Assembly (NCBI GenBank): GCA_914767715.1
Contig: OU612068.1
Span: 18,786,001-18,850,000, forward strand
DNA length: 64,000 nt
Reading direction: 5' to 3'
Origin: Membranipora membranacea
Taxonomy: Eukaryota > Bryozoa > Gymnolaemata > Cheilostomatida > Membraniporidae
Below the pieces are notes generated by a model that worked only from the letters and a program-made list of their open reading frames with translations, was not told where the DNA came from and ran no database searches. Below, piece by piece: positions 20,205 through 62,375 of this stretch (position 1 is its first letter; each line of letters begins with the position of its first letter). Position numbers and translations under genes: made by a program.

Positions 20205-23200
20205 ATGGGTGATGATGTAAGTTCAGCAAATTCTTTCAAGGTTAACTTAACTTAATCCTACTAACTCACCTGAGTGAATAATTTAATATAAAAAAGAGTA
20301 ATATATGATATGAATGAAGAAGCCTACCTTTTTATTTCAGTGTAACCAAGAAGCTCTGACTCCAATATTTGACCACACTGTGTTTTACATTGCTTTGTTA
20401 AACATTTACTAAGCTACTTTCTTCTATAATAATCTTATTTAAATCAAAAAAATGTAGGCCTGTGTAAGGCAAGGGAATTTGAAGAATTGCAATGCATGAT
20501 GATGATTACAAATTTGCCATAAAATAAATCTTTTTTTTTGCATATCCATTTCTCTTGTTTTACTATTTGACAATACAACAAAAGGAGCCCTGTCACATCT
20601 GATGGCCGATAAAATATACTTAGCTTGTCATCATCAGTCATATAATACATCTTATATTATCATATGGCTTGAATGAGCCCATAAATGGTTCTGGCAATTG
20701 ATCTCATTCTTTTGCAGGATCATGAACACATGAGGAAGCTGTTTATCGGCGGACTCAACCCTAAAACTGATGATGAATCAATGCGTTCTTACTTTGCATC
20801 CTATGGGACCGTTGTCGACTGCATTGTGATGAAGGACAACCAAACTAAAAGGTCAGTGTTAACTACTTTATTGTGCATAAGAAACAGATTTGACTTTCCA
20901 GTCAAAATGGTCATTCTGTTCGGCCAACAGGTTCAGACACGTTTCTTGTTGTGTTCAAAAACCAAAAATATAAAGGAAATTCCACAGTTGGCCTATTCTG
21001 TAACAACTGATATTCCAGCTAGCGCACATAGAGAAGTCCAGTTGTTGCACTATTGTGGTAAGGAAGTGGGTAAACATAGGAAAAGAAAACCTAAACTTGC
21101 CATAATAGCATTGTCTTTATTTATGTGGAAGCTAAGGGAGACCGTTGTGTTATTGGTAGGGATTATGAAGGGATTACATACTGATACTACTGTTTTCATT
21201 GGTAAATTTCTATATTTTATAATGTTCAGAGCCAACCAACAAATTTAAAACCGCAACATGTGAGCTACCTTCTGTACTATAGCCTACCTCAAAACATACC
21301 TCCATGTCAATATGGGCAAGGCTCGAAGACAGCCTCTTAACATCACGTGTTCTAAACTGGTTGCAGAGGGGCCCGAGTTTCAGAGTTGCAGAGTTTCACT
21401 GTCGACACGGTCATGGCGTCTTATCCAAAGTATTTTCAGCATTTAAGTGTTCTCATTGCTCTGTGATGGTCATTGAAATTAGAATTTTGACTTGCTTGCT
21501 CAAAAACTTTTTCCATTGTTCTGTTCACAGACAATCTAACAAAATCACATATTATTTCCTTCATCCTCTACCTCTCTGTAAGCAGTTAGCTCAAGCTCTT
21601 GTTCCTACCTCCTAGGACCCCCGTGTGATCTTGTCAATCACTATAAAAATTTGCTGTCAACCATTTACTACCCTCTGCAATAAGTTCACTGAATTTTTCA
21701 ATTTAAAGTATCAAGCACAAAAGGGATCAGATACGGTGTGGTGTCCCTCAAATTCTATTGTTACTCAAAGATTCCTGTCGCTGATTGCTTGTTAGTTTTC
21801 TTCCCAAATGAGACCGGAATGCCTAAAAACTGCCTCTATTTTCAAATTGTTTTCTGGGGGAGGCCATAACCCCTAGCGTGAAGGTACCAACCCCGCCTGG
21901 CCCTAAAACCAATGTATACAGGCCTGGACATTCCTCCTTCTGTATCTCAAGTAAAATTTGCCCGAAAAGTGGTGCGGCCAATTGGTATGCTCCCCAACAA
22001 AAAAAGTGGCCAAACCGGAAAAAAGGTTGGCCATGTATGATCTAGTTGGTCAACATAGGCTATCTCTTCAATTTTGCTGGTGCATTTACCTCAAGTCAAT
22101 GATTTTCTTATGTATGCATGCAATTTATTTGGAATCATCTACTATGATTACAGGTCGAGAGGATTTGGATTTGTCACATTTGAAGATCCCAAACTTGTGG
22201 ACCAGATTCAGAACGAGAGACCACACATAATTGATGATAAGACCGTTGATACTAAGAGAGTGGTGCCTAAGAGCGTAAGTCTAATTTTAAAAAGAACTTT
22301 CTGCTCTAAACTTTTAAATCTGAATAGGGGCATCCACATTTACATACATGTCTTGTGCTGCTAAGATTGTTATTGACATGATAGATTTAAAATCATTTGG
22401 CGACTTGGTCATAAAGTTGGCCCAATGTTCTAAGTTTACTCTGGCAATGTTAGTAGGGCCTACGCTAATGGCACAAATGTTGGTATTTATTATTATAGTA
22501 GTTGTGCCTAATTTGTAATAATTATCAATCGTAATTTGTAGGAACGCACTGGTAACAATAATGACAGAAGTACTGTCAATAAAGTATTTGTTGGTGGATT
22601 AAAAGATCAAATTACTGAAAAGGATATGCAGACATTCTTCTCCCAATTCGGCCCAGTCGAGAAAATAGAAACCTTCACAGACAAGGAGACTGGCAGAAAG
22701 AAAGGATTCGCTTTTGTCACGTTTGGCGACTTTGACTCCGCTGATAAATGCTATTGTGAGTTACACTTGAAAGGAATGAATTTAATTGAGAGTACAGGAT
22801 ATTGAGCTGTACATATCATCTTATGTCCAGCTACAAAACATCGCAACAGTTTAGTTACTCTATCATGCGACATCCTACATGAAAACCCATCTACATATAA
22901 AATTGAACACACAGTGCGTTTAACATTGCATTTTCGATGGCATTTTCATTGCATTTTCTACTTTCCTTTACAGTGTTTGCTTCATCACAACCATTCCGTA
23001 AAGTCAACATCCAGGGTGTCAAAGTTGAAGTGAAGAAAGCACAAAACCCCACCAATAGGAACCAAGGCAATAATATGGGCGGAAGAGGGTGAGTTATTCG
23101 TTTGAGAACAATATCTTACCTCCAGTTTTCAGTACTAATGTTGAATTCCTAAACTGGAAGCAAAAAGTTCAGTTTTGGATTTGATGGTGGCCAAGGATGA

Positions 23201-39451: not shown

Positions 39452-39790
39452 TTTAAAAGATCTTTTAGTAAACAAATTACTTGAAAAATCGGAGTCCATT
39501 AGTAGTATCTTTTGTTGATAACAGATGCATTATCATTAGGACTCACAACTTCAATATGACAACAAATATGACTGAAACAGCTCTTCAGCATATACTGTGT
39601 ACTTCTGAAGAGAATTTTAATAAGAGGTCTTTTGGTGAACAAAAATTACTTGAAAAATTCAACCCATCAATATTATATTTTGTTGTTAACATAGATGTAA
39701 TATCATAAAGACTCACAACCTCAATATGACAGCAAATATGACTGAAGCAGCTCTTCCGCACATATTCTCCACAACCGAAGAAGCATCAGA
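39452..39790 (+). repeat. 170-bp tandem duplication of the GPCR1 5' end
   Basis: The stretch around 39452-39621 is repeated with substitutions at 39622-39790. Both copies contain actcacaac, then tcaatatgac and aaatatgactgaa, the sequence around the GPCR start. The first copy therefore holds a decoy ATG at 39556 whose frame ends at 39708, 17 bp before the real start. Confidence 0.8.
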
Positions 39791-40661
39791 CAAATGGACC
39801 ACATATTACTCAACAAGACCTAAATCGGCAGCAATCTATCCAACTTCAACTCTTTCTCTCATAATTTTCTGCAATACTCTGATATTGATGACTTTGAAGC
39901 GAATGAGAAAGTTGAAGTTCAATCACTACTATCTAGTGGGACTGACTGTGTCAGACTTATTGTTAGTTCCAGTTATTTCAGTGGGAGTTTATATAGCTCT
40001 GGCCGGTGGTATATCGATGACAGAGTACTACTGCAGCTTAAACGGGTTTTCTCTAGCGTTCCCACTCAGCTCAACAATATGCATACACTGTCTAATGGGT
40101 GTTGAAAAGTGTGTATCAGTTCTGAAACCTCTAACATACCGGAGATTTGTCGCTAGAGCTGACGCAAGAAGATGGGTAGTTGCCGCGATCATCTGCTGCT
40201 TTATGCTACCTTTTGTGTACATCGGTACACTCTGGCATTCTGGAATACTTGACTTTTACTATGATCACATCACATGCACCTGTTTACCCAAATGGACGAT
40301 TACCTCGTACTTGGCTTTTGGAGTAATCACTGTGATAGGACTTACTGCGCAAATTATGTCGCACATGCTTATTTATAGAAAAATAATCACGATGTCAAAG
40401 CGACGTCGCAAGAGTACCATAAAAGCTGCGAGGACATTACTTCTCACAGTTGGCTTGTACTATGTTTGCTGGCTACCCTACTCTATATACATATTGTTTC
40501 AGTTTTTTGTTGACAATATTATAGTAAATGAGTGGGGTATTTATTTTTCAGGTAACATTCTGATGCAAAACAGTTACTTGAACATCTTTGTTTATATTTT
40601 TTCTCTACCTGGCTTTAAGGAGAGCCTATTTGGCAGCCGCAAGATCGGTGTGCTTTGTTGA
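39726..40661 (+). CDS. class A (rhodopsin-like) GPCR, single exon, paralogue 1
   Basis: 311 residues, intronless, with seven hydrophobic segments at about 37-57, 69-92, 103-127, 148-167, 191-218, 234-259 and 270-292. Class A marks are visible: an N in TM1 (FCNTLIL), SDLLLVP with the TM2 aspartate, a Cys at the start of TM3 and Cys residues in extracellular loop 2, CWLPY in TM6 and NIFVY in TM7 (for NPxxY). The G-protein-coupling DRY at the end of TM3 is replaced by EKC. The N-terminus carries an N-glycosylation site (NMT). The start at 39726 follows a duplicated leader. The ligand is unknown. The nearest relative is the gene at 42548. An AATAAA lies at 40865. Confidence 0.9.
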   Translation: MTANMTEAALPHIFSTTEEASDKWTTYYSTRPKSAAIYPTSTLSLIIFCNTLILMTLKRMRKLKFNHYYLVGLTVSDLLLVPVISVGVYIALAGGISMTEYYCSLNGFSLAFPLSSTICIHCLMGVEKCVSVLKPLTYRRFVARADARRWVVAAIICCFMLPFVYIGTLWHSGILDFYYDHITCTCLPKWTITSYLAFGVITVIGLTAQIMSHMLIYRKIITMSKRRRKSTIKAARTLLLTVGLYYVCWLPYSIYILFQFFVDNIIVNEWGIYFSGNILMQNSYLNIFVYIFSLPGFKESLFGSRKIGVLC

Positions 40662-42547
40662 GCTGAGATTGATGGCAGCACAAAGGACTGAAAAAAACCG
40701 CACTTGGCCTGCAAATCATTTGAAATGATGTGTGACCAATCTAGATTAAGCAGATTACTTATTCAGGGTAGATAGAAATCTACGCCTGTCAATACTTGAA
40801 CTTGTGTGATATTATCTTGACTAGCTATCAGGTATTGATGTATTGTGTATTTGAAATTCTTTCCAATAAACAAGGCCTGATCTGCTTTTGATTTGGTAGG
40901 AGTCGCGATCTTTATATACATGGGTATATAACTCCATTCTGATATAATAAGGCAGAGAAAGCTTTGAAATTGAAATTTAGCTAATATAGCTGCTGGTATA
41001 GTATAGCTAGCTATAGGAAGGCATTCAGACTCCGGTTTACTTTAACCAGAAGATCAGAGCTGTTGTATTTCATCAAGATGAATGGATAAGTATTAACTTA
41101 TGAATATTATTAGATTTAAAATTTATATATATTATTATGCATTTGTGTGGAGTGATAGAGTCTTGCCAACTTAAATTGACATATGAGGCCAGGTCATTAC
41201 AATAATTCACCCAGACTAAGATTCATTTTGAACAATGGCTTATTTGTGGAAAGTACGGTTGCCCTTCTAAAATTATCTGTCAAGCACTAGCCAAGGCATA
41301 TGTATCAAACCTTGTTTTTTTCTTCATCGACATGTCTTTGTATGAGGACATCAAAATCGATTTGTAATTCCTCCAGCTTTTAAGAAAAAAAATCGGCTGC
41401 GCGAAGCTCCTCGTGTGAAATTATGAAACCACGTGCACATGAACTCGGTGCACGTTTTTGCCACGGCCAATGCAACGAGTTGTGCATGTAAAATCAATAA
41501 TCAAAATTATTTATATGATAATCTTTCAATCATTGATAACCATGAAGTGTTAAATGCTGGACAATTCTCTTCATATTTCATGATGATAAATTGTCACACA
41601 AGTTCTTTGATAAACAGGAAGTTTATTTTTGCTCTGAATCTGTAATCTTTAATTGAATCTTAGCTATATCTGTTGATGCGCTTCATCATACGGGAGTTGG
41701 TCTTCAGGAAATACGATATTTTTTATCTACATCAAATGAGCTGTGAACAGTTAGTTTTCTTGCATTTATACCATTCCCATCATACTTAAGCAACTGGAAC
41801 ATAGCATGGAATTTGCAACTTGTAAATCGATAACCTTGAAATTCACAAATAGAAAAAAAATTGATAACACATTCTATGCGATTACATTTTTATCATGATA
41901 TACAATTAAAAGGGACTTATTAAAAGAAACAATTATCGCTATGTATAAAAAAAATGTCTCATGGGGCCATTATTCACGTTTGAATGCCAACGCCTTTTTA
42001 GGTAACAATATACTCAAGCAATCTTGAATTTCTCGCAATAAATAAATAGATAGAGGCTTATAATTAATTATTTTCAGAACTTTCATCGAATTGTGGCAGA
42101 AACAGACAATAAATATTATCTTTATCTTTAATAAATTGGAAAACCATCATTTATTCTGGTAAAGATAATTTTTCATCTAAACTTCTCGCTATATCAATCA
42201 TCAGAGATATCATGATCAGATATTGCTTTGGGGAAATAATCTACTTCTGGGTGATATAAGTAAATTTTTACGAAGTATAGAGTATTATATCCTCTTGATG
42301 CCCTATAATGGATTTGTCCGTGTATATGTAGGCTACAATGCATTGCTATGAAGCGCAGCCATTGGTTTATTTTAAATTATGCATTATATTGTAGTGTATA
42401 TATAAGACTGTGTAATTAGATATAAGACTGACATTAGTTAAGGTTTGCATGATGTGCAATTATATCAGTCAGACAAACACATAGCCATATAGTCTGCATA
42501 GAATCAACTGAAAACTGAATAATATATTTTATGTACAATTTAAATGT
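40662..42547. other. spacer between the two GPCR genes
   Basis: AT-rich, with the GPCR1 polyadenylation signal at 40865-40870. No gene or repeat family was recognised. Confidence 0.5.
40865..40870 (+). terminator. polyadenylation signal of GPCR paralogue 1
   Basis: AATAAA 204 bp after the stop codon. Confidence 0.6.
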
Positions 42548-43552
42548 ATGATTGATGAAAACAACATGGCTAACTGGACAGTGAATACAACGCATCAACA
42601 AAGCGACATAAGATTTGAGGAAATGACATCATCCATAGGCTTGGGCCAAAAGGAAGATGACTCATGGAAGGATTACGTTTCGACAGTACCTCCATCAGCG
42701 GCAGTACTACCGACAATAATAATTATTCTCATCTTCTTCAGTAACATCATCATACTCATCGCCTTCAGTCGTATGAAAAAACTGAAATATCATCATTACT
42801 ACTTAATAGCGCTTGCCGTCTGCGACCTCATATTAATTCCAATTTTGTCTCTGACAAGCTACACGATGATTTCTGGACACGTTCTGATGAATAGCTACAT
42901 CTGTAATATGAAGGGAGTATTGATATCTTCACCACTTACAACAACTATTTGTATACATTGCTGCATGTGTATTGACAAAGCTATATCTGTCCTAAAGCCG
43001 CATGTCTATCATAATTTCGTCAGCAAGCCGAAATCCAAACAATGGATTGTCACGGCGATGGTTTGCATTTTTATTCTTCCGGTTTTTTATATTGGTGCTC
43101 TATTTCATACTGAAATTTTACATTTCTACTTTGAAAGTAGCATATGCACATGTGTACCTCAATGGACTGTCAGGTCATACTTGGCGTATGGGGTGGTTAG
43201 CGTTCTTGGTTTACTTGTGCAAGTCATATCACATTATTTAATTTTTAAGAAAATCCTCAGCATGCCAAAAACTAACGGGCAGCGACTTATGAGGGCAACT
43301 AGAACAATGCTGCTCACAGTTGGAGCTTACTATATATGCTGGCTTCCTTACTCCATTTTGATGCTTGTACAGAGTTTTTCTAGTAGCATGCGAGCTTTCA
43401 AGTGGGCGATTTACTTTTTGACAAACTTGTTGACGGTAAATAGTTGTGTCAATGTATTTATCTATTGTTTTACGCTGCCTGGATTTAGAGAGCAAATCTT
43501 TACTTCTCCACGTATCGGAGTCAGAGAGGAGCAATCTGCCCAAAACTCTTAG
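42548..43552 (+). CDS. class A (rhodopsin-like) GPCR, single exon, paralogue 2
   Basis: 334 residues, intronless, collinear with the gene at 39726 and similar throughout the seven helices. Shared stretches include KK/RKLK-HHYYL before TM2, CICTC/CTCTC plus PQW/PKW in loop 2, YYICWLPYSI in TM6 and LPGF at the C-terminal boundary. TM7 has NVFIY. The DRY position reads DKA, so the acidic residue is kept but the arginine is lost. The N-terminus is longer, with NWT and NTT glycosylation sites. A second in-frame ATG at 42566 is an alternative start. It is a tandem duplicate of paralogue 1 that has diverged. The ligand is unknown. Confidence 0.9.
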   Translation: MIDENNMANWTVNTTHQQSDIRFEEMTSSIGLGQKEDDSWKDYVSTVPPSAAVLPTIIIILIFFSNIIILIAFSRMKKLKYHHYYLIALAVCDLILIPILSLTSYTMISGHVLMNSYICNMKGVLISSPLTTTICIHCCMCIDKAISVLKPHVYHNFVSKPKSKQWIVTAMVCIFILPVFYIGALFHTEILHFYFESSICTCVPQWTVRSYLAYGVVSVLGLLVQVISHYLIFKKILSMPKTNGQRLMRATRTMLLTVGAYYICWLPYSILMLVQSFSSSMRAFKWAIYFLTNLLTVNSCVNVFIYCFTLPGFREQIFTSPRIGVREEQSAQNS

Positions 43553-46874: not shown

Positions 46875-49800
46875 TTATTGTGCCATATAAGTGTGCTTGT
46901 TGTTTTCATGGTCTCGAAGCTTTCGGTAAAAGCTCTGTACGTAAGTGAACACACACTTCCAGTCTGGTTTCTTCATTCTCACCATATCCTCCACATCGAG
47001 TAGGGGTGCGATATCAGCCTTCTTCCTAAAGTCACAAACAATAGTTGCATTTAAATGTGTGTCTCTTCCTGATTAATGTTCTCATGCTATTTTCGCTAAA
47101 AGAGATCAACAGGAGAAACAAAGACAATTGCTTTGAAGCAATATCCTGATGATAAGTTTACACATAGGAAACATCCATAAGAATGTTAATAGGCCAGAAG
47201 AATGATTTGACATATGCAGAGCAATACCCAGAGCCTTCAAAGTTGCAGATACTAATTTATACTAACGACAAATTGACTTATAATGCTTTTTTTAGACCTT
47301 CAAGGACCAACACAGACCATAGTGAACACTAATCATCGTATAATCTCACCAGTTGATGAACAAAGTTTCTCAAATCCACATGGGTTTAGAGGAACGAAAA
47401 GATAAGAACTCAGGGGTCACCATGTCATTGACAGTCATATGAGCATCTTCTCATCAATAAGATAAAATAAGCACAGTGACACAATAAAATTACCCTTTTT
47501 TTATTTTCGAGGACATGGTCTCATTTTTTTAATAAGAATTTGATTGATAGAAATATAGTTCAATAAATTAAAATAAATGAAATTAACTTACTCCGCGAGG
47601 TCAAATGCAAGCTGAAAGTTTTCTCTCCTTCGTCTCTCATCGACTTTCGACCAATCAAATGAGTCGGGGTAAAAATGATGAATCAACGCCAGAAATGCCA
47701 AACCATTGTTCCAACTTGTCGAGAAATTGGTAATGGCGACATTCTAAAACAAATAGGATCAGGATTGTAATTTTTATTGAGAAACATTGGTTGTACATTG
47801 GGTTCAGTTAACACATCTGGAGGCGAAGCTGGTCATATTGGCAATGTGATGGTATTTACAGTGATCTCCATGACAATAAAGCAGGGCCTTTCAATCCATC
47901 AATCAAGCTATCATCAAGTAAAACATTGGACAACAACGGTTCGGTTACGCACATAGTTTTCACACTCAAGTTGAATGGAACATGTCAAATGCTATGATGT
48001 TAGTAAGAAAAAAAGTTGGGAAATCCCAAGGATCTAAACTACTAATGGAAAGCTACTTGAAATAGTCTACTTTTCAAACTGCACACCAAGCATGTCAGTA
48101 AAAGCAATGCAAACACTCTGGCCTTAGCCTTGTCACGTGGCCACTGGCACTGGCACGTGACAAGGCTACTCTGGTCTAAGTAAGATTGTAGCTCTGATTT
48201 TCCATTTCACTGATAGGCGTATAGCATAAACCTGCGATAGACAATTTGGCCATCATCATTATGCTGCTGGATAAGGGATATAGGCTTAGCATGTACCTCA
48301 TATTCTTGCGTTTTTGATTTGCACCAATTAAGAAGCAATTGTTTAATGGCTGTGGCACTGCGTTGTATTCCTGCTCCACCAGCTGACGATGCAGTGAGAT
48401 TTCGTGCAAAGCTACAGGAAATTATAGACAAAAAAAAGCAATAAGAAAAACGCAATCACATGAAACTTTGGACATCAGATTAAAGTTTTTACATTCATTC
48501 ATCTGCAATCAAGTCAGTGACCGTTCCTGATCATATAAGTTTCTGGACAGACATGTTACTAGGACACTGTGTTTGCTTACAAATAGAGCTTAGGTAAAGT
48601 CATTAAATTGATTTAGAAATGCAAGCAAGCAGAAAAAAAGAGATGACATGACAAAAAACTAGACAAAGATGGGAAAGGTTTAGTAAGGGATTCAGTACAA
48701 GTCATCGTCCCTACAGTTAACCTCAAAACATTTCTGTGATGTCATAACGCTGTGTAGATTAGGTGTATTTTATTCTCTGTCTACAATTCTCTTCTCATGC
48801 AGCTGAACGATAATATAATAGACATATGTAATATATGTCTATGGATAATACCAACGATCTAGTTGCACATAAAAGATCTGATGCAAAAAAGCCGAGCACA
48901 ACACAAAATCCAAGAAGAGCTAGAAACAACCTCTTAAATTTTGCATAAAATATTGGTAGCATTATGTTCAGCACTGCAGCCAAGGGGAAACAATTTCACA
49001 AAGATTTTAAAGAATAACACAGCTTGTTCTCAGAAGGGAATGTCATCAGATAAACCAAAATCAAATCACTAAAGACCATTAAAATCATGCTTTTTGAGTT
49101 GTCTGCCTCCAAATATATTAAATTTTATTGTTTCGTTTCAAATATTTATTCCCCAAACTTTTTATGATCTACCTAAGTTGGGCAAGCTGAGAATGTTTTA
49201 TGCTGACACTTTTGCGGATTTGCGGTATAACTACTTTGAAAGCAGACATTTTTGCTCTAAATTACAATATTTTATTCAAAACGACCGTGCTGCCCACAAT
49301 ACTACCTTGTACTCTTGTGTCATCATTTTACACCAGCTTAGCAAGCCTTCAACCACAGTGGGCTGACCCCCACGAGCTGCACCACCGAACCTTCAAACAC
49401 ATAGCAGAGAACTAACTATCAACTAAAACGTCTAAACCATCCTCAGAGTTTAATAGTCACAGAGGCAATGCGGGTGTTAACCGAAGACCGGGTTCACGCT
49501 GAATGCCGAGGAGCGATGTGAAGACTGAAATGAATTAGTAGAAATCATGCGGAGGGGAAACTAGGCTAAGACAATTAGTAAATCACTCAGTGCTGGTGGA
49601 GACAACTCCACCAAACTCAAGAGCAGATAACTTTACACTCTGTCTCTACCTCATAGCCTTCTGTATTCACTGAGCAGAATGTCAGCATCTCCTTTTTGAT
49701 TTCGACGATACTGACGGCTTTGCGCTTTAACATTTTGGCAGCATTTTTAGCTACTGGAATGGCATTGATTGAAACACTCGATGGTGTAGTAGAACTAAAG

Positions 49801-52800
49801 GGAAAACAACAAACAAACATTGTGTCAGGTAAGTATGAAATCAATCACTCAGCAGTCATCAACTGTTAATAATCGCTGCAGGACTTTCCAGCTAATAAAG
49901 TTGAAACATTGGTAGATAAACGCGACTATTCAGTGAAAGCCAAAACTTGCATCCAGTATGTAAAAGTGATTGTGAATCAGGTTTTTGGTATCATTCTGGA
50001 GTTCTCAGTCTAACTTAGAAAACAGCTATAAGGTTCATTAACAACATATGGCCCAGTTTCAACTCATTTTCACTCACAGTTGAGATCTGAAGGTTCTAAA
50101 AAGGTACTATTTTAATGATAGTATACACAAAATGTTCTCTTTTTTAGTACCTCCCAATCTCAAGAGTGAAAATCAGTTGAATCTGGGCCACTTGCTGTTA
50201 ATAAACCTTATAGCAGTTTTATAAATTACACTGAGAACTGTAGAATGATACCAAAATCCTGAATCTTCACAACACTTCAACTTTGACCTCCACTGATGAC
50301 TTGGAAGAAGCAGGCCACACATCTACAAAGTCGGTATCTGGCTACTGGGAAAATAACTAACATTGTAAAATCAATGATGGCAAGCCATATAATTTGGGAG
50401 GTTGGGGTATAATAATCAAATGTCCTCATAAAAACTAGATAGCTACAACGTCACACAGTGAAACTAGAAAACTGCATTGTGGGCAAGTAAATGTGAAAAT
50501 CCAGGAATAAGGTAGAAATTCATAGGACAAGGAATGAAAGTGAAGATTTGTTGGAGGAGTTGTATTCTCAATCACAGTGGCAAAACAACTAGAAGAATGT
50601 TTCTTACTTCACTTTGATTCCACGCCCAACCTACAGTCATATTAAACCAAATATCCTGTGTCATCATAAATAAAGTTTCGACATTTTAGATAGAGCTCAA
50701 ACCCGCTAGCTCCCAATCCCACTGGCCACCAGTTGCAAAACTTTCAGTAGGATAAGTCAAACACCTTCCAAATATGGGTCATGGATAGTTGGTTTAATAT
50801 GCCCTCAAAATAAAGCTATGGTTCTGAGCACCACAATCAGAACATGAACGGGTGGGTCATATGACTACCTCACATTCTGATGTATTGCTTTTCACAAAAT
50901 CAAACACTTCCTTCACATTCTTGCTCATCTGTTTACTGCAAAGGGAAGACGAATAAGACATGACGGGACATGGCAGAGTAAAACTGTCAAATTTACAAAA
51001 ATCTGGGAACACAGGCTATATGTCATTTCTTTGGGTAAATTGCTACTGTAACAGTGAAAAAATATTCTTACTCAGTGTTTATGGGTTGCTATTTTCCAAA
51101 TTTGTTAAAATCATCGATAAATTTCATTGCAAGATTTCAACCAGGGTCGCTAGCCACATCATACATCGTTGCGCAGAACCACAAAATCAAATCTGAGATC
51201 ATAAAACTACAATCTCCATCTGGTAATACAAATCCTGATAACCTGAAGATATCATAGGAATTATATAACTTACAATTAATGTGTATACATTAACAGCAGA
51301 GCTTAATGTGCTGCCAGCGTATACACATCTCATAAATAATTAGTATAAAGCTGCTGCCTATCCCCATTATAAAACAGACTCGCTTATCACTGATAGGCTA
51401 AAATTATTCCACTGACATTCAGCAGACAAGGGTCAGGAAATTCCAATAACTCTGCTTGCCCTAAAAACTACCCTAATGTGTAGGTCATTTCTGGGTAAAG
51501 GAATCAAATTGGATGTAATATCAATGATTTTCTTAGTTCATAAGAGGATAATAGCCAGAGCACTTTGACAGAACTATCATATGCTGAAGGCAATAAACTA
51601 AGATTGATAATTTACATACAGTATATTGCCCAGAACATAACTGGTTAGCTTATTATCAGAGAAACAGAAACTCACTTGGGTTTTGGTGCACCATTCGGGT
51701 TGTTTGCAGTATCCATCTGTTTGAAAGCTGCCATAGCACCACGGGAGCTTGCAGGTGCTCCTTTCCCTAAAACAGAATCATACTTATAAGGATTTGTGCA
51801 CTAATAAAAATCGCAGCAAAAACCTATGAAAATGCTCAGACATCCCATTTTAAGATATATAGTTATCCCATATATGAAATAAGGTTTCATTTTGCTGATC
51901 AAGTTATAGACATAACCATATAATTATGAAATGACATAATATAATATGTTTACGATTATATTATAACACCATGCATAAATAATATGGAATAAGTTGTCTG
52001 CGGATTACTGACTATTGAGCTGCCAATTTCCATAACCCTGCTAATTATGCTCTGGGAGTAGCTGCACGTGTTCACTCCTAAGTAAAACCATGCAAACTCA
52101 CTTCGTTATTGACATGAGCGTATGCCTCACACATCAAATGCTTTGTGTATGCAAAATCTCTTATGAGCAGATGAGAGTAAAATCATTTCCAAAATATAGG
52201 TGTGAAGAGGATTGGAAGGGAAGACAACATCATCATACAGTATATCCAAAGTCAACAAGTATGCCTATCATATCAATCGCTTTCTGTATTTTGAATTTCT
52301 TATGAGGTAATGGGAGCAACAACTTTCCCAATGTGATAAGGATTGGAAGGAAAATGACATCTTTGTACGGTATTTCCCAAAACAACGAGTGAATGGGTGA
52401 CAACTATCATGAGTTACTAGTTAGGGGAAACCATATGACATGTTATTTGAGGAAATGTTTCGAACTCCTTTTTGCTATGTTGTAATGCCTCCAATGATGA
52501 AACTGTACCTAATAGAGCTGACATCGCACCAGTTTTGCCCCAAGATTTACTGGCATTGGTTTGCGACTGGAACTTGTTTCCGCCAACATTCGATGTCCAG
52601 CTTTGATTGACAGTGACGCTTCCAGCAGTTCCGGGTTTAGAAAGTTTTCCAATTAGGGATTCTACTGTGTTATCTGCAGGGAAAATTAAGGGGTCACACA
52701 AAACACACAAAAAAAGTAACAGGCATACAAAATAAAATAAAACACAAGCTCATTCCAAAAAGAAGTCTATGTATTTATACTTCATGCCATACAAGAACAA

Positions 52801-55800
52801 GTTTGTTCCTTCCATCTGTGGTGGAACAGAGATTTAAAAAAAAAAGAGTTCCTTTTGCAATCACTCTGCTACCAGAGAGAAGAAAATTCTTCCAAGGCAG
52901 CACTTCTATTAATTTCACAAAACCCACAAGTCACTTCATGTGTATTAGAAAAAGAAGGTTCAAGGAGGATAAAATTGAAACAAAGAAGCTAGTTGGAAAC
53001 ACTGGGTCACACACCAAACAGAACAGATTAGGGTGCAGATTGTTATAAGATGAAGTGTGAGACTTACCTGCCCCTGGTCTGTTCATACCTCCTGTTGGTC
53101 TGCCTACAGACTTCAAACCTACAATATATAGTGTTTGCGTGTGAAAACCAGGCGGTTTCTTATAACCATATTGTCTATTTGTATTGACAGCATGTATACA
53201 TTGAAATATATATGTATATGTGATTGCTTACCGGTTTTGGAAAACGGTGCAGCGTCCTTGTTGTTAAGAGCACTCGAAGGCTTAGTATCTTTTATTTTAG
53301 AGTCGAGCTTTTCTGCAGTTACTACTGGTTTTACCTCTGCTGACTTTGCTGGCGCAGCGCTGTCGACTTTATCTTCTTCTATTGCTGGGAACACACAGAA
53401 TGATCATTAACGCGATATCAAACATATACAGATGAGGGTTATATCATTGTTATGTCTGTATTCTTATGTTTAGTAGTTAGGATGAACATATACACTTTTA
53501 TTACACCTCGAATAGCATCCAGCATATACAAATAGGTACACATATGAAAGAGTAGTTACATTGTTGGTTCATAATTAACATTGCTAACCATAATTACCTC
53601 ATTAGCGCCATTTTTGCCTAAAAACGCCCCTTAGCCGACATAGCTAAAGGGGCAGTAAGTAGGAAATGATTTTGACTCCATATGATCTGATTTTTTGTGC
53701 TGTGGCAACAATCCTGCACAATGGCTGAGGCAACCCGGAGGACTACTAGTATCTATTCAATTTGATCTATCCACCAAATCACAAAAATACTATAGTTCCC
53801 ATGCACCTTGGGGTGAATATCCATCATAATCGTCACATCAACTATTTTTTGCTATCTTAAAAATATTTTGGGACCCAGGACAACTTGGTTAAAAGATTTA
53901 GGTAAGAACAAATATGGCTTGTTGTTAAAATGCTATTCGCGGGTTCGATACCAAAAGGGGTGGTTATCATAATTCATAAGTGCCCAGCCAATTCAAAAGT
54001 GTCTACGTTTAAGCATAGGTGTGCGTACATTTAGGAGGAATTCCTTGTATCATCACAATGCACTAACCCATAGATTGTGCTTCCAAGCAATAACATTTAC
54101 ATTCAACCATTAATTGAAGGAGCTTTCACAGCGCAATATGTTTTAATGATCACGCTTATGCTACTGGGAAATACCAGACGTACGCCTACGTACTGTTACT
54201 GTATGTCAGTCAGCTATTTCTATCTTAGGCTAATGAAAGATATTGCCAGCATGAAGTAAAGATGCTGCCCCCCAAAATAGTGGGCGCATATAATAATAAT
54301 ATATGTGGCGGAGATGCTGCCTCAATAGTGATCACATATAATCACGGTGTTCATGGATGTCTTATGTCTATGCTTAGAAAAAAGCTTTTGAGTTGTGCTT
54401 ACAAAATCCCAAGATCAGGTATTCTGTGAATAGAAGAGTGCTATATTAAGTTCACTTATATTCAATCATAGGTATGAAGTGAGGTCAACAAGAGTCCAAC
54501 ACTATCATACTAAGATGAGGTTAGTGATGCCTAGACACCATGCGCAAGGTCACAGGCAGGCCGGGCTGCAAGACGGAGGGATGAGTTTGGCCACCTCACA
54601 CTATAGGCTAGGTTTCTATAGTACTCTATAAAGTTGATGATTTCAGAACAAGACTACTTACTTGCTGCCTTGAGGATTTCCTCACATTTACTGACTGAAT
54701 CATCCTTAGTATCCTCCGCTACGGATTGATTGTTATTCTGATCTTCTGGCTGAAATAGAAGACGAAGTCTGAGAATTCTTTTATTACAAGTCACTGCAAC
54801 CCAAATTTGACTCACAAATATAAAACACTCATAATAGCAAGTCTTGATAAGCTTTGTTGGTGGGGGACCACCAACAACCACAGACAAAGCTTGTCAAGGC
54901 AGGCTACATGCATAAGTGACATCTTTCAAACCTTAGAGAATGCAAAGAAAATAATCTGAAAACAAATAGTGCTGACCTGGTCCATTGCTGCTACTTCTAC
55001 ACTCAGAAATACTTCACACTGAATCTACGAAAGTTTACTCGCTCAACCCCATACATGTAATATTTAGCTTTAAGTGATATACAAAATATGATAAATTAAT
55101 ACAGTCTGTTAAACACTGGAAAGTTCATCATTACGAGTTTCGCTAATTGAGAATTACTTCAATTAATATCTTGTTTGAGTTACCTTAATCCGCACTGATA
55201 TAAGTGTACAACATGATTACCTAATATATCGAAAGTAAGGGCTTTCTCAGGTGTATCACTTTCTTCTTAGTTCACAATTTTTTTTATGTATGGAAGACTC
55301 GGGAGTGGTTTTTTGTACTCAGTGCCATGGACGTGGCCTTGAGACATCTTCTTTGTAATCACAACACCCAGACAGATCTTTAATTCAAATCAACCATAGT
55401 AACTTATAGTACTCACCAGCTTGGGCTTTGTGAGTTTGCTACTGGCGGGTGTTATTTTGATTTTTGGGTTATCTGTAAACAGAATTTAGAACTATCATCT
55501 CAAGAAAGCTACGTATAAATAATGTACCATTGACTTAGCAAAAAAAGGCTCTCTAAACATTGGATTACAATGAGTGGATTGAAATTAAAACCACCAAATC
55601 TAGCTAAGCAAGACGACATACCATTTCACTAATGTGGCTTTGTGATAGTTAGGTGATTTAACTGGATATGCAAATATGTTTTGGTCAGCAGTTGGGGACG
55701 AGTAGGAGAACATGAATTCATATGAATTTTGGCATGCATATATCTTAAAGGAAATATAGATCATAGAACAAACAGTGTATTGCTTTCTTGCATACACCTA

Positions 55801-58800
55801 CTGTTTATACTTACTCTGAACAGTGAGTTTGCAGAAAGAGGACGACTCCTGGTCCCCTCTTACAGCCACACATTCATAATCTCCGGAATCCTCAGGGAAA
55901 ACTTCTGATATTACAAGCTTAGCCACCAAACCATTAAAGATCTGAACAAACTCAGAATTATTCTTCATGATCTGAGGGTGAGATAGATAAGACGCTTTTC
56001 ATCAACAGAGAGACTATCATATTGTATGTTTTTGACTATTACTATTACTATGACTATTGACTAATAACACTGTTAATGACCATTTCACAAGTGTTTTAGA
56101 AATTCTGCTATGATCCTTCGAGGTCTGATCGCTCCTAGTTGAATGAGTGAGACCTGCTAGGGTTCTCGTTCCCAAACCGCTCACTTTTTTTATGGAACTT
56201 TATACATTCCCATCCGGGAATGAATTTGTCTAAATGAATGACAATGTGCAATGACTTTAAGCAGAGTGATAGTAAGCTCAAAAAAGCATTACTCTTTACC
56301 CCTGTATTATCAATCACTGAGTTGCACTTGGAAGTTCTCCTTCCTTATAGTGGATATGTTACCAATGAGGAAGCTCTAGACTCACCTTGCCACTTTTATA
56401 CCAGCTGATGTCCACATCACGGTACTTCTCTGCCAGTTTACACGTGAGGATCACATTAGTGTCTCCATCCTTTGCAGTCTGATCAGTCAGATCTTCAGCA
56501 AACAATAACTTAGTTGGAGGCGAGGGTGTTTCTGTAAAAATAAAACATTGTATGGACATTGAATGATTCGGACATATGTAGAGGTGTCTTCTCAAATATT
56601 TTATATTAGTTTTGAATTAAAAAATTTAGACTATACCTCTTTTCTCAAAATAAGTCCAATTCCACAACTGCATTGCTCATCAGATGAAAAGGAATGATAA
56701 TGCCGATATGACTACTGTCTACCAACATTCTTGAAAACTGGCAAATGGAATAGTAAAAGGATGGTAGCTCAATCAAGCCAAAAATTCTTTGATCTAACAA
56801 AATCTTACCCGTGACAGTGACGTGAGAAGATGATTCCACACAGCCATGCTTGTTTCTAGCTTTACAGACATAGACACCATTATCATCAGGGTACAGCGAC
56901 TCCTGTATGGTGAGGCTAGCGCTGGGTGCTGACCAGTTAAAACTGATGTCATTACTGGGTTTGATTTCTACTCCATCCTTTAGCCATGTGATCTTTATAG
57001 AGTCGCAATCAGCGGTATCGTCAGACTCAAACTCACAGACCAGCTTCAGCGGATCTCCATCTACCCCAGAGACATCCTCCAGAGCCTTCACCAAACGGGG
57101 CTGCAAAATAATTGATGCCCTTATTTTATGCTGATGGTGAAGCTGTAATTCTGGTATCTTTAGACATAAATGGTGATAATGTGGACAGCCCTTAATAAAA
57201 GCCAGTTGGTTTCATTGAAGAAAAACCAACATCTCAATTGTTGTAAAAAAGAAACTAAAGAAACATCCCATCAATCATAACAATATGATACAGAATTTCT
57301 GTAGATCTCAACAGAGTTTTATTCTGCACACTTACAGGATGTTTTTCTCTGACAATGGAGACTTGGAAGTTAGACACACTGTTTTCACCAGTAGTGACAG
57401 AACTATGCTTTCTCTCCATTGTAATATCTTCTTCTATTATTTGTGTGCCTCCTACACCTCCTGTCTCTTTGATGTCAACTTTGTGTCTCAAATCTGACTC
57501 TGAGGTGACTGATCCCTTTGCAGACAACTGAGGGATGATAGAAAAAGGGATCAATTTCTTAAGACTATGTGCACTCTAAATGAAAACGAGTATCTAACTC
57601 TAAGCTTATCTATGCTAACTTGCACGACTATATTCATTACACACAAAAAAAGGCTACATGATACTGTGTATTGGTGCCAAAATTCTTATCAGTCTTGTTC
57701 ATGTACCAAGCTTTGTCTTCTGACACATGAACAGATTTTACAACGCAAGAATGCATAAATCTACTTTCTGGAAATATATTCGGGTGTAATTTTAATATGT
57801 TTTTTGCTGATTTTATTGCTCAAATCTAGGGCTACCCACTAGCAGGATCGAACTTAACTCTCATTGTCCAAACCAGTAGAGAAATGAGATGGGCAATAAA
57901 CAGGATAAGGCATAGTTCATATCTAAAAAACGTAAATGAATCGAAAATCACCTTTTCTTTTGTTATGACTTCATCTTGCTCTGAGATCTGAAGTCCTCCA
58001 ACTTTTGAAATCTTGGTGACTTTTGTCGACTTTTCATAGACTTCTGACTGGCTGGTAGTTCTAGAGTGCTTACTGAAGCTTTCAATCTATGCATAATAAA
58101 GACAATAGTTGAGTTTATAGTGTAACTATGAAATTATTGCTAGATTAGTGAAACAATAAGATTTACTATATTAAATTCTCAATATTGGAATTGTGTTCCT
58201 TTTTGACACTGAGAGACAACTACTACAGTAATCTTGTATTTCTCACCTGAACATCACCATCAGCCCTGTGTAGAGTTCGAGACTCATGTTTGATTGGACT
58301 GACTATCACTTCATCATCATTCTGAGTTGTATGTAAATTGGTACACAGATCTGGTAAGTTATTGGGTTTTTCTGCTCGGCCATTAGACAGCTGTAAACAG
58401 AAAACAGGTAGTAAACATCAAAGGAAGGGTTCCCAGTTGAGTTCCGTGTTATGTAGATCTCCACTATCACTAATTATTAAACAGAAAAGATCATATTATT
58501 TCTAATGGAAAATAAAGTGATCAATATGATACATTATGTCTTGTCGCTCATATGTGGCTATAAATATAATTCTGCTTACATCTCGGAGAACACATACGGC
58601 ATCTGGGGTTGGAGGAGTTTTGGCCGTGTAAGCATCATGATCTTTATTGAGCGATGAGGCAATAGTCCTTGTAGGAGTTGTTTCTCTCACACCTGCACTT
58701 TTATTTTCTATTTGCTCAGCTGTAAGACAATGATAATTGATTCAGAGTGATAGATTGATTGACAGCCTCGAATTAGGCTAAGTAAATTTAAATAAGTAAG

Positions 58801-61800
58801 TTTAAATTTGAATATTCTAGGGGGTAAATACTGGACTTCATTGCGTCAGCATGCAGCAGTGTCAGAGTGGAAACAATAAATAATTGTTGCTTGACAGATA
58901 CCATACAAGCAAGTGTACCAGTTCAAGCATCTTTAACCCCATACAATAGTAGCCTAAATTCAAACTCAATTTAACAGTCAATGTCCGCCAAGTAAGTTTG
59001 GTTACATGATATCAATTTACACGTTGTGCATTGAAGCTATCATAAGAGTAACAGAGCGCAGCAATTTCTCTGTCACAATCTGAATTTGAGCTTATAATTA
59101 CATTGTTTTGGATATTGTAATAAGCGAAGCGGATGGGCTTTACAGGATTTACATTGACACTTTGAAGCGATTATTTAATATTGACGGAAAGCATACCAGT
59201 TTTTTTTCGGAGGTCACGGATTGCTGACCTAATCTTCTTTTTATCCTCATAGCTTGAAGTTTGATGTAACTGAAATAAAATTTATATAAAAATTATCATA
59301 GGAAATGTAACAAACTTTCATATGGTTGAAATATCGTTGTCAGATTATGAGACTTTTGGTTTTCGATTGATCAATTCAACAAAAGCCGCAGTTTACTGCT
59401 ACATTTTTTATGTAATATCCATCGTGTATATCCAATATATGATGGGACCAGGTATATGAAGGAAGGGCGGGCAGTTCCAATACTCATTGATCACTTACTA
59501 GGATTTTCAGATCCTCCTCTGTGGTGTAACCACTCAGATCTATAGTTGAGCTTTCATTCGGCTCTACAAAATACAAGTACATTAAAATGGTGCTAAAGAT
59601 GCAATGGTGAGTAATGATATCTATGCTGTACAGCAAAAGCTTCCATAACTGTGATTCTCTCTACTGTTTATTCACTAAATTCTTTAGAGGATTGCCCAGT
59701 TTTGACCAGTGAACGTAGCAATTATCACATATGGATAAAAAATAGGTTATTAAATATGGTGGTTATGCATGATCTCATCATATACTCAAAATAATAATAC
59801 ACACAGAAAACCACTATTTACGCAAACCGCATTGTACACAAAATTTCGGTCAAACACCTAGTCGTAGGGTTACTGCCCAAATAATACAAAGAGTATTGTT
59901 GAATCTTGACACCTTGCTTCATCGGCACTGCCAAAATAAGCTTGACATTTTTATTGTATAACATCATGTAGTTACAAATAATATATAGTGACATTGACTT
60001 CCATAAGGGTGCAATGGGTTACATGAATTTGTGGGTTCAACACTCTTGAGAACACATCAAAATCAATTAAATGGCTGAAATGCTTCAGCCGATCTTATCT
60101 ACACTTTATTATGGGGATATTTGAAGTAGGTTATTACTGACATCATACTTATATACATGTCTCTACGTGATATCTATCTATCTACATTGGTGCGAAACTG
60201 AGTCATCATTTTTATTGTACATGGGCAGTGAATTAATTGATTGAGACCCATTGTAGTGCCGCAAAAGGTTTATATGGCCAGATTTCACTGTCTTTTAATT
60301 ACAAGTAATCACAGGTAATAAATAAAAGTGAGGAAACTGTCCAGCGTTGTAATTGTATCATAATCGTGATCCATGCTCGATTTCAGAACCCAACAGTCAC
60401 CTTTGCTTCACTGCATATTTATTACATCATCCAAGACTTTATGGCTTTCAAATAAATGCAGTACGTACATGTAACCAAATATATTAAATATTCCAAATCG
60501 CTCCTCTACTCATTTTATGAATAAAGATTCCTTCTCTGACATTGTTTCTCTATTTATGTTGGTAATTATTTTTTACCTGAACGACTGCTGTGAGTTGTCC
60601 TCCCACTAGCGGAGTTATTATTGGAATCCCTTAGTTTTCTTATTGCAGCTCTTATGGCACGTCTTTCTTCAAATTCTTTCGTCTCCTTTAACTGAAAGAC
60701 AAAGGTATCTGACATTTACAAAAACTTCCTCTGAGAAACGATGGCATCGATAGAAAATAAAGCCCTTGACATACTAGATACTTTATAGAAGATGTCCTCT
60801 CAAACTTAAATTTCAGAGACTCATGAACTTTATGGTTGCCAGCTGAATGCGTATGAATGGCCATCCATGAAATAATGATATTTTTTATGATGCAAAATAA
60901 ATACCAGCTTCGGAGATAATAAAACGTAAACAATGTCAAACTGATGTCACCATACCTGCAAATTTATATATTGTAACATTTTATTGCCCTTATCGAATTC
61001 ATTCAGATAACACAAGGCCGTGAGACTGAGAAACACGCAACATTACTCATATATAGAATCTTTGCCTTTGATGGGAAGATAACAGAGCAATACCTCCATG
61101 AATGAACATAACTTCAAACAATTCTGTCCCAAAACAACAAATTGAGTAAGGTCTCATGAGATACTATGGAATGGATGTCTGATGTCTGATGTCTGATGTC
61201 GGATGTTGTTCAATACAAAACAACATGAATCTTACATACATACCGTGATGTTGAGTTGCTCGATGTCGCTAACATGACTGTATTTCTCTACCAGAGCAGG
61301 GTCGGCCATCTTAAGTGTGACTGAGCTAGTAAATTTTGTGCTATCTAATGACTTTTCTGTCCTTGTTGTTACTTCTATTTCCGGGGTTTTACAGATTGCG
61401 CGCTGTTCTTTGCTAGAGACTCCCGTCAATGAAGACTGAACTAAAGCAGTTGAATTGGGTCGGGGAGACCTAAAACTAGGCTGTGGGCTGGCTTTACTGT
61501 CAACCGCAACAAAACTTTGAACCCTGCGGGGGTTCGATGTTGAGTCCGGATTGCGCCTTAAAATGACTGTGTTAACTGGACGAGATCTCCGTTGAGCTTG
61601 TGTCTCAGATGTTACTGTTTGTGATTCCGATGGAGTCGGACTGGGAACTGGTGAAATAGGAATGGCATTCAGTAGAATGTTTCTAGCGTGAGATCGTTCA
61701 GAGTTTACAGATTTGACACCATTAGACAGTTTATCTAAGTTTGCAGTTGGTGTGCGAGATGTAGAGGGAGAGCTGGGTGTGTTCGGTGCTGAGTTTGTTT

Positions 61801-62375
61801 CTAAAAACTGCTGTCGCCTCAAGCGATTATTTCGGATAAGTTCTTTACTGTTTGCCTTTGCTTCTTCTGTCGGACTTGTACTAATAAAACTTTTCTGTAT
61901 AGCACCAGTAGATTTGGCTATCGTTACGTTGTTTAGATGTTGTGTGTGGGTGTTGTTCTTTGTGATATTGTTGAAGGTTTTGCTGCGACTAACAGTGACA
62001 GGGCGTGTAACACCGAATATCTGCCCAGTATCTGTAGAGTTAGGACTACCAAACTTAGATCTCAGCGAGGCTACAGAACCTTTAAGACTTTCCAATGGGA
62101 AATCTTCAAGCTATAACGAGAAAGCCAAAAATTAGGAATGTTATTTGATCCGCCCATGCAGTACAGAAACAGTGTGTAATATTGTATGTTATCAGTTGGC
62201 GCCAATTCAGATCAATATTTGCTGGCCGACATTTTAAAGTGGTATTACCTGGGAACAAGGTGTGAAAAATGCAATTAACACAGTTGCAAAAAACATACTA
62301 CATAAGAAATATAGCAAGCGAAAACAGTTAGTAAAGTAAAATTTGTACCTCTGCAACTTCCATCATGCTAGGCAT
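46875..62375 (-). CDS. SMTN-like: smoothelin-family cytoskeletal protein with two Ig domains and a C-terminal CH domain
   Basis: Minus-strand exons: 62375-62349, 62110-61244, 60691-60577, 59563-59499, 59269-59197, 58719-58580, 58390-58247, 58086-57952, 57527-57336, 57100-56809, 56531-56386, 55971-55815, 55472-55417, 54749-54662, 53384-53232, 53118-53068, 52673-52509 and 51766-51676. Then comes one of four alternatives (listed separately), followed by 47743-47592 and 47025-46875. All phases agree; the product is 1,108-1,134 residues. Features in order: a Ser/Thr/Pro-rich disordered part (10-290); two smoothelin motifs (EFEERRAIRAAIRKLRD near 303, SYEDKKKIRSAIRDLRKK near 364); two I-set Ig domains (587-684, with LVCEF, ITWLKDG and YVCKA; 684-785, with LTCKL, ISWYKSG and DYECVAV); a Lys/Ser-rich linker; and a CH domain ending LLDVEDMVRM and WKCVFTYVQSFYRKL, the smoothelin signature. 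Smoothelins associate with actin filaments in contractile cells. Confidence 0.9.
48126..48170. repeat. hairpin in the intron after exon 19d
   Basis: AGCCTTGTCACGTG and CACGTGACAAGGCT pair exactly around a 16-nt loop. It lies between alternative exon 19d and the constant exon at 47743. Confidence 0.85.
48297..48411 (-). other. alternative CH-helix exon 19d (115 bp)
   Basis: TTCCTGTAG acceptor, GAG|GTACAT donor. It enters in phase 2 and leaves in phase 0. It ends ATAIKQLLLNWCKSKTQEYE and is closest to the vertebrate smoothelin CH start, so it is perhaps the default form. Confidence 0.8.
49306..49390 (-). other. alternative CH-helix exon 19c (85 bp)
   Basis: GTTTGAAG acceptor, AAG|GTAGTA donor. 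It enters in phase 2 and leaves in phase 0. It encodes KFGGAARGGQPTVV then EGLLSWCKMMTQEYK, very close to the exon 19d ending. Confidence 0.7.
49650..49794 (-). other. alternative CH-helix exon 19b (145 bp)
   Basis: CCCTTTAG acceptor, GAG|GTAGAG donor. It enters in phase 2 and leaves in phase 0. The C-terminal part reads VEIKKEMLTFCSVNTEGYE, matching the smoothelin CH start pattern of K-x-x-L-L-x-W-C-x-x-x-T-x-x-Y-E. Confidence 0.75.
49974..50266. mobile_element. palindromic element between exons 19a and 19b
   Basis: The left arm (gaatcagg, then ttttggtatcattct, gagttctcagt and agctataaggtt) returns inverted on the right (aaccttatagc, actgagaactg, agaatgataccaaaa, cctgaatc). Arms are about 130 bp with roughly 85% identity by eye. 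It is non-coding and probably a MITE. Confidence 0.8.
50869..50935 (-). other. alternative CH-helix exon 19a (67 bp)
   Basis: CTTTGCAG acceptor, GAG|GTAGTC donor. It enters in phase 2 and leaves in phase 0, encoding NKQMSKNVKEVFDFVKSNTS then ECE. It aligns with the other three exons over the first CH helix. It is the most diverged, lacking the Trp/Cys pair. Confidence 0.65.
54838..54898. repeat. hairpin upstream of smoothelin exon 14
   Basis: cttgataagctttgttggtgg and ccaccaacaa..gacaaagcttgtcaag pair with one short bulge, about 90 bp from the acceptor of the exon starting at 54749. Confidence 0.7.
56386..57100 (-). other. Ig-domain exons of the smoothelin-like gene
   Basis: The exon 57100-56809 encodes a whole I-set domain, entering in phase 0 and leaving in phase 1. 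The exon 56531-56386 starts a second one, which is completed by the exon at 55971-55815. Both domains keep the paired Cys residues, the core Trp and the D-x-G/N-x-Y-x-C strand-F motif. The reading frame continues from the smoothelin motifs upstream and toward the CH domain downstream with no stop or start in between, so they belong to the same transcript unless splicing says otherwise. Confidence 0.85.
61172..61207. repeat. TCTGATG tandem repeat
   Basis: Four to five copies of an 8-bp-spaced gatgtctgatgtc motif in the intron just after smoothelin exon 2. Confidence 0.85.

Follow-up and report, generated by a model that had tools for sequence, protein, structure and literature searches.

Mutually exclusive exon clusters are a known kind of gene organization. 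As far as the available parts of PMC3228551, PMC6071210 and PMC5740500 describe them, fly Mhc, Dscam and human clusters of 3-10 exons consist of tandem homologous exons with equal phases, usually with one default and several regulated members, weak splice sites, and double inclusion out of frame. In the actinin family, tandem exon substitution occurs in vertebrates, fly and nematode, and the human events fall in the EF-hands (PMC9741552, accessible text). The CH2 domain of vertebrate smoothelin is also varied by splicing, and in the accessible text of PMC10643981 a single helix-I exon is described (115 nt in mouse SMTNL1 exon 6, 118 nt in mouse SMTN E18), followed by a penultimate exon of 152 nt for helices II-IV and, in SMTN, a last exon of 151 nt; the variation hits helices IV-VI and is brought about by the cassette E20 and the gene copies SMTNL1/2. 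The literature on actin binding by this domain points both ways: one CH domain alone may not suffice for binding (PMC10643981), and SMTNL1 lost F-actin association upon deletion of the CH2 domain (PMC7240100), each according to the part of the source available. In contrast to the single vertebrate exon, four candidate helix-I exons were found in the smoothelin gene analyzed here, so that the variation would fall on helix I instead of helices IV-VI.

Identity and structure of the gene

The window, i.e. the whole analyzed stretch of 64,000 nt, contained on its minus strand a gene model at 46875..62375, joined on AG/GT sites and phase agreement from 18 exons upstream of the cluster, a single exon out of the four alternatives and two last exons. 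The first exon with the start codon (62375-62349, minus strand) was the least certain part. Two Smoothelin motifs, two Ig domains and a C-terminal CH domain were assigned to the model protein by Pfam Smoothelin, I-set and CH. Pfam Smoothelin (PF12510) matched in 2 stretches at 2.7e-18 and CH matched residues 1003-1105 of 1118 at 2.3e-25, while the nearest PDB relatives of the CH domain were 2d87 of smoothelin L2 (3e-42) and 2jv9 of SMTNL1 (3.3e-38). The combination that marks the smoothelin family, a Smoothelin motif and one C-terminal CH domain nearest to the type-2 CH domain of smoothelins, was present, and on these matches the gene is an invertebrate smoothelin of the muscle cytoskeleton; the preliminary description had likewise read it as a smoothelin. 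No second match to the Pfam Smoothelin family was detected elsewhere in the 339-Mb genome, and a second last exon like vertebrate E20 was not found in the window, where one clear match (46875-47025) was followed by the next at E 0.2. Unlike in vertebrates, the Smoothelin motif matched a single gene in the genome and one last coding exon of its kind was found in the window; the two Ig domains of the model are a further difference.

The cluster was flanked by constant exons, all on the minus strand. The exon before it (51766 to 51676, 91 nt) ended with the split codon AA_. The exon after it (47743 to 47592, 152 nt, beginning NVAITNF) and the last coding exon (47025 to 46875, 151 nt including the stop) correspond to helices II-IV and IV-VI, respectively, in the published exon plan.

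Four candidate alternative exons and their reading frames

The candidate alternative exons were located on the minus strand as follows: exon A at 50935-50869 (67 nt, NKQMSKNVKEVFDFVKSNTSECE, weak donor GAG|GTAGTC), exon B at 49794-49650 (145 nt, ending in SIVEIKKEMLTFCSVNTEGYE, weak donor GAG|GTAGAG), exon C at 49390-49306 (85 nt, ending in PTVVEGLLSWCKMMTQEYK, weak donor AAG|GTAGTA) and exon D at 48411-48297 (115 nt, ending in SATAIKQLLLNWCKSKTQEYE, ordinary donor GAG|GTACAT). The five introns of the cluster measured 740, 1074, 259, 894 and 553 nt. Each exon was preceded by AG and followed by GT, and each length left a remainder of 1 on division by 3 (4/4). All four opened with 1 nt which filled the split codon AA_ left by the exon ending at 51676, and closed on a codon boundary, after which AATGTCGCC followed at 47743. 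Compatible GT-AG sites and identical phases, both features of mutually exclusive exon clusters, were therefore found in 4/4.

Inclusion of any single exon gave an intact protein of about 1,100 aa without internal stop in 4/4 isoforms. Differently, when the exons were joined in silico in the 12 other combinations (the skip, 6/6 pairs, 4/4 triples and the quadruple), a premature stop appeared in 12/12, lying 91-449 nt upstream of the last exon junction, far enough for targeting by nonsense-mediated decay; joint inclusion and skipping were thus unproductive, as is typical of such clusters. The preliminary description had reported four AG/GT segments of 67, 145, 85 and 115 bp between 51676 and 47743, any one of which restores the frame into the NVAITNF exon while none or two shifts it. 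Its coordinates, lengths, phases and peptides were reproduced, and the frame rule held for single exons, the skip and all six pairs and extended to the triples and the quadruple. Since in each of AD, BD and CD a premature stop lay 198 nt upstream of the last junction, A, B and C might alternatively be poison cassettes, which are included together with D to provoke decay and thereby adjust smoothelin levels without supplying alternative protein parts. A poison exon does not need a helix-I-like peptide in the right phase, yet A, B and C each encode one, and we regard this explanation as very improbable.

Exon lengths were compared under the WebScipio default, which, as far as its description was available, accepts candidates that differ from the query exon by at most 20 aa. 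With D (38 codons) as the query, A, B and C differed by 16, 10 and 10 codons, respectively, all inside this limit; the gap between A and B was 26 codons. Compared to the known clusters, the lengths of A-D are unequal (22-48 codons, up to twofold) and their identity is low (3-9 identical among 15 helix-I residues). The linker before helix I also varied among the four versions, from 7 to 33 residues.

Similarity to helix I and coding signal

Scored against three known CH2 proteins, D, C and B ranked 1, 2 and 3 among 1555 exon-like segments from both strands of the window. Exon A ranked 6, and two unrelated segments (7464 on the minus strand and 23611 on the plus strand) outscored it, their acceptors scoring -2.1 and -5.6 bits. 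In dinucleotide shuffles of the interval, the score of B was reached in 0/2000, that of A in 230/2000 with the known proteins only as reference and in 95/2000 with C and D added. When an acceptor of at least 5 bits was required, the score of A was reached in 6/1500 shuffles (mean of six references) or 1/1500 (best of B, C and D), compared to 57/1500 and 16/1500 when this requirement was dropped. In a profile search, B was 12th of the 20 best matches (E 6.9) and A lay outside these 20. The Pfam CH score rose from 75.1 bits without helix I, a typed join that no in-frame splice yields, to 78.3 with A, 83.0 with B, 89.7 with C and 92.9 with D. The peptides of A, B and C carried hydrophobic residues at matching positions and were helix-I-like, ending in the right phase. 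Additionally, the ends of A, B and D across the exon/donor border belonged to one short direct-repeat family. No fifth helix-I exon was evident in the interval, since the next minus-strand candidate, at 48057, scored only 5.8 against 11.0 for A.

These comparisons indicated that the likeness of D, C and B to helix I in known CH2 domains lies above chance. The weakest case was A, whose likeness exceeded chance once acceptor quality counted. Homology among the members, which is expected of a cluster, was clear for D, C and B and weak for A. The earlier proposal of a mutually exclusive cluster born by duplication was supported in part, namely as far as the anatomy of the four exons goes.

Codon usage served as a test separate from helix-I similarity. 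Compared with open intron stretches of equal length, A lay above 3272/3419, B above 494/494, C above 2174/2198 and D above 1003/1011. This result bears on the possibility that only D, or perhaps also C, is functional, A and B being decaying relics of duplication or rarely used cryptic exons. Such decay would fit the divergence of A and B, which is the greatest from known helix I, the weak donors of A, B and C, and the size of A, just 22 codons. It is unlikely, however, in view of the open frame and phase kept by all four, their acceptors in the constitutive range, and the coding-like codon usage throughout, which in B (48 codons) exceeded every intron stretch.

Splice sites and intron elements

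The donors of A, B, C and D scored 1.3, 1.7, 1.0 and 6.4 bits, compared to a constitutive mean of 7.3; only 1/19 constitutive donors, scored leave-one-out, fell below those of A-C. The acceptors of A-D scored 5.4-6.2 bits, inside the constitutive range of 1.1-11.4. Among the 259 GT of the interval, the donors ranked 66, 54, 73 and 3 (A, B, C and D, respectively), and among its 238 AG the acceptors ranked 20, 21, 16 and 24. Splice-site scores thus fail to single out A-D there. No sterically or U2/U12-incompatible pair was found, as the introns measured 259-1074 nt and all four donors, judged with the U12 consensus, were U2-like GTAG or GTAC. No clear enrichment of FOX, GCATG, STAR, CELF, MBNL, PTB, GTGTG or YCAY motifs was detected in the cluster introns, where we take these motifs to pair with their respective splicing factors. 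ACTAAY occurred 4 times in 3520 nt of cluster introns and 4 times in 8327 nt of other introns, too few for use.

An inverted repeat with 102-nt arms, transposon-like in appearance, occupied 49964..50277 in the intron between A and B. Its family comprised 83 matches listed, with 40/805 candidate places scored, and near-full-length places among the matches listed showed 81-88% identity on the better strand. Considered at 49974-50265, it was rejected as a locus-specific splicing hairpin because it belongs to this dispersed family, and it is probably no part of the exon switch.

Exon choice could be made by docker-selector RNA pairing of the fly Dscam type, as opposed to splice-site strength with trans-acting factors. 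Competing RNA structures are named as the major mechanism in the available part of PMC6071210, where steric and U2/U12 exclusion are confined to pairs of exons. Against this mechanism, the first and last introns contained no stretch whose pairing with each of the three inner introns surpassed that in shuffles (20/30 and 9/30 as good; one sequence, a weak test), and the long inverted repeat upstream of B belongs to a dispersed family. Pairing of this type is less likely here but keeps an appreciable probability.

Other CH loci in the genome

As a control, 10-kb stretches at 5 of the 7 other CH places matched in the genome were scanned. In three of them a single helix I of comparable score was seen, in alpha-actinin two, and in one none clear; a four-copy helix I was found in 0/5. 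The alpha-actinin gene, named by near-identity to an actinin PDB match, contained two 88-nt copies of the CH2 helix-I exon in the same phases, i.e. two similar copies of equal length compared with four diverged ones in smoothelin. Relatives were also sought in viral contigs, where 10 stretches fitted a pattern and 0 were confirmed.

Discussion

Exons A-D are probably tandemly duplicated alternative exons which are spliced one at a time, with D as the default and A-C regulated. They share tandem homologous arrangement and equal phases with the clusters of fly and human, and their exclusivity at this locus is a predicted one. The sizes of D (115 nt) and the following exon (152 nt, 47743-47592) agreed with those of smoothelin-family exons in the available part of PMC10643981, and the C-terminal plan D-152-151 is common with mouse SMTN E18-E19-E20/E21 and SMTNL1/SMTNL2 exons 6-7-8. 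From this fit D is likely ancestral, and its ordinary donor and best CH fit would also suit a default exon. A, B and C, with their weak GTAG donors, would be spliced in only when promoted by a factor specific to a tissue or stage. The choice of one exon would commit the transcript, and doubly spliced or skipped forms would be removed by nonsense-mediated decay.

The gene could in this way build four proteins differing in the first helix of the C-terminal CH domain. These muscle or cytoskeletal smoothelins would share one fold and vary in helix-I surface and in linker. Different CH binding faces among the isoforms, as earlier proposed, are possible; because the versions also differ in their 7-33 linker residues, a role of linker length or of the choice of partner (tropomyosin, calmodulin) is as likely as one of an actin face.

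A search of open-access papers brought up no description of alternative helix-I exons in smoothelin. We suggest tentatively, with slightly less than even confidence, that a four-way helix-I cluster in one gene achieves what in vertebrates takes three genes plus a C-terminal cassette, namely to provide several CH2 domains of one fold with different faces, and that, together with the duplicated alpha-actinin exon, CH2 helix I is a recurrent splice-swapped module, D being the default and A-C being switched on by muscle type. The role of splice-varied smoothelin CH2 domains is unknown even in vertebrates, according to the accessible text of PMC10643981, and four natural helix-I variants of an otherwise constant CH domain would make a direct test of CH2 function possible. 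Such a set would further imply that splice variation has used opposite ends of one domain in two animal lineages.

Results

The smoothelin gene was modelled on the minus strand from 62375 to 46875, with 18 upstream exons, one of four alternative exons and two last exons, all with AG/GT borders; the first exon and start codon were the least certain portion. The alternative exons A (50935-50869), B (49794-49650), C (49390-49306) and D (48411-48297), of 67, 145, 85 and 115 nt, were located exactly where the preliminary description had placed them, in the interval between the constant exons ending at 51676 and starting at 47743. In agreement with the phases given there, each exon filled the split codon AA_ of the exon ending at 51676 and terminated at a codon boundary; as it had also stated, inclusion of none or two of them broke the frame. 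None of the four single-exon isoforms (A 1102, B 1128, C 1108 and D 1118 residues) contained an internal stop, and a premature stop was found after skipping and in all six pairs, all four triples and the quadruple ABCD, in which the downstream frame was regained yet blocked by stops within out-of-frame exons. These stops preceded the last exon junction by 91 to 449 nt. Since the usual rule for nonsense-mediated decay is 50-55 nt, skip and multi-exon forms are expected to be decay targets.

Pfam analysis of the gene model detected a C-terminal CH domain, a pair of Ig domains and two stretches of Smoothelin motif (2.7e-18). For the CH domain, the closest solved structures were smoothelin splice isoform L2 and SMTNL1. 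The Ig domains (I-set type; window 55815-57100, minus strand) follow the Smoothelin motifs and precede the CH domain; such domains are not known from vertebrate smoothelin. Among three scored candidates in the 339-Mb genome, two matched the Smoothelin motif, at window 59201-59269 and 60629-60691; none matched outside this gene, in a search that a diverged paralogue could escape.

The coding nature of the four exons was evaluated by similarity. A profile built from three known proteins was run on peptides from all six frames of the window; it matched D (6e-6) and C (5.6e-5), placed B 12th (E 6.9) and did not include A in the 20 matches listed. Among 1555 exon-like segments of both strands (AG, open, 1 mod 3, GT, up to 210 nt), D, C and B took ranks 1, 2 and 3 and A rank 6 with the three proteins as reference, two unrelated segments at 7464 (-) and 23611 (+) outscoring A. 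When C and D were added to the references, so that these two were scored partly against themselves, A rose to rank 4, tied with 7464. The score of B was matched in 0 of 2000 interval shuffles with or without C and D as references, and that of A in 230 of 2000 with the known proteins and 95 of 2000 with C and D added. With six references including B, C and D, each of which thus scores partly against itself, A ranked 4 of 3016, 435 and 228 segments with no acceptor, a 3-bit or a 5-bit acceptor required, respectively; at these levels the six-reference mean of A was matched in 57, 8 and 6 of 1500 shuffles, and its best score against B, C or D in 16, 2 and 1. Codon usage, trained with A-D all excluded on two nearby receptor-like ORFs and the remainder of the smoothelin gene, was coding-like in all four exons, open intron stretches scoring as high in 147/3419 (A), 0/494 (B), 24/2198 (C) and 8/1011 (D) cases. 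These comparisons very well supported B, C and D as predicted coding exons, and suggested that A is probably one.

Splice sites were scored with a matrix from the 19 constitutive introns of the gene, whose own sites were scored leave-one-out. The acceptors of A-D (5.4-6.2 bits) fell inside the constitutive span (1.1-11.4), ranking 20, 21, 16 and 24 among the interval's 238 AG dinucleotides. Donors were weak in A, B and C (1.3, 1.7 and 1.0 bits; each GTAG), a single one of the 19 constitutive donors scoring lower, and ordinary in D (6.4 bits); among the interval's 259 GT dinucleotides the four ranked 66, 54, 73 and 3. Splice-site scores by themselves are insufficient to single out A-D. Exclusion by short introns was ruled out by intron lengths of 259-1074 nt, and U2/U12 incompatibility by the U2-like nature of all four donors. 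Competing RNA pairings in the cluster gave no signal above shuffles, a weak test on a single sequence, and splicing-factor motif counts in it gave nothing firm. The sequence separating A from B holds an inverted repeat with 102-nt arms (49964-50277), one member of a short dispersed palindromic family, transposon-like; most of the 40 places scored among 805 genome candidates were near full length, with 81-88% identity on the better strand. The intron following D holds a perfect 15-bp inverted repeat with a 14-nt loop (window 48125-48168).

The constant CH part matched seven places outside the smoothelin gene, and 10-kb stretches around five were examined. L014, L015 and L016 each had a single helix I that scored comparably, with an additional weak match in L016. 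In L017, the strand carrying the CH match showed no clear helix I. In alpha-actinin (L018, G000:C8:14222001-14232000), two 88-nt copies of the CH2 helix-I exon were found on the minus strand at 7300-7213 and 6291-6204 (TAKEGLLLWCQRKTAPYK and SAKEGLLLWCQRKTEPYN), about 1 kb apart and identical in phases, a candidate second mutually exclusive pair at the corresponding position of a CH2 domain. Duplication of the helix-I exon is thus not general in this genome, yet a second gene shows it too.

On the plus strand, past the 3' end of smoothelin, lie two receptor-like ORFs without introns, which by eye are of the seven-helix type (window 39690-40661 and 42512-43552). Exons resembling an hnRNP-type RNA-binding protein, named by eye from an RRM-like peptide and MGNQ and GGYG-rich repeats, lie at about 20685-25490 (plus strand). 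Mitochondrial COX1 of the animal was aligned to mammalian COX1 and sites were counted by eye: of 10 AGR sites, 5 corresponded to Ser and 2 to Gly in the mammal; of 6 AAA sites, 5 corresponded to Lys; and of 17 ATA sites, 11 corresponded to Met and 2 to Ile. This pattern suits the invertebrate mitochondrial code but does not suit those of vertebrates, ascidians or echinoderms.

Discussion

A-D are a real and well-formed candidate for a cluster in which four exons are spliced in a mutually exclusive way. Tandem exclusive exons are already known, and as far as the literature search showed this cluster is new as an instance. In human clusters, the usual pattern according to the text available is one default member with several regulated ones (PMC5740500), and D fits the default role. 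In the favoured mechanism, A-C would be chosen through weak, regulated donors against D, and decay of wrong forms would back up the choice.

In mouse smoothelins, the available text describes a helix-I exon of 115/118 nt, an exon of 152 nt that encodes helices II-IV and, in SMTN, a last exon of 151 nt (Garg and Fisher, PMC10643981). The window exons of 115 (D), 152 and 151 nt agree with these sizes, and D is therefore likely the original exon. Over helix I, C was closest to D, with 9 of 15 residues shared, and A and B had 6 of 15 in common. Two duplication rounds are plausible. Unlike here, the varied part in the vertebrate smoothelin literature at hand is helices IV-VI (E20); one last exon of that kind was seen in the window.

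All four peptides kept hydrophobic residues at the LL.WC positions (VF.FV, ML.FC, LL.WC and LL.WC) and shared a T at one position, a pattern to be expected should all of them pack into one CH fold; they varied in surface residues and in 7 to 33 linker residues. They may alter an actin-binding face, as the preliminary description proposed, although the published evidence is mixed: the F-actin pattern is reported to become diffuse with SMTNL1 without its CH2 domain (PMC7240100), but a single CH domain may be insufficient for actin binding (PMC10643981). SMTNL1 also has calmodulin and tropomyosin as partners, and its isolated CH domain without upstream sequence is described as binding tropomyosin very weakly (PMC5359911); altered linkers may therefore be as important as the altered helix. 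Expression, exclusivity and function of the four exons are putative. Scallop catch muscle is reported to be enriched in a smoothelin-like protein (PMC5963113), which makes a muscle role for invertebrate smoothelin plausible.
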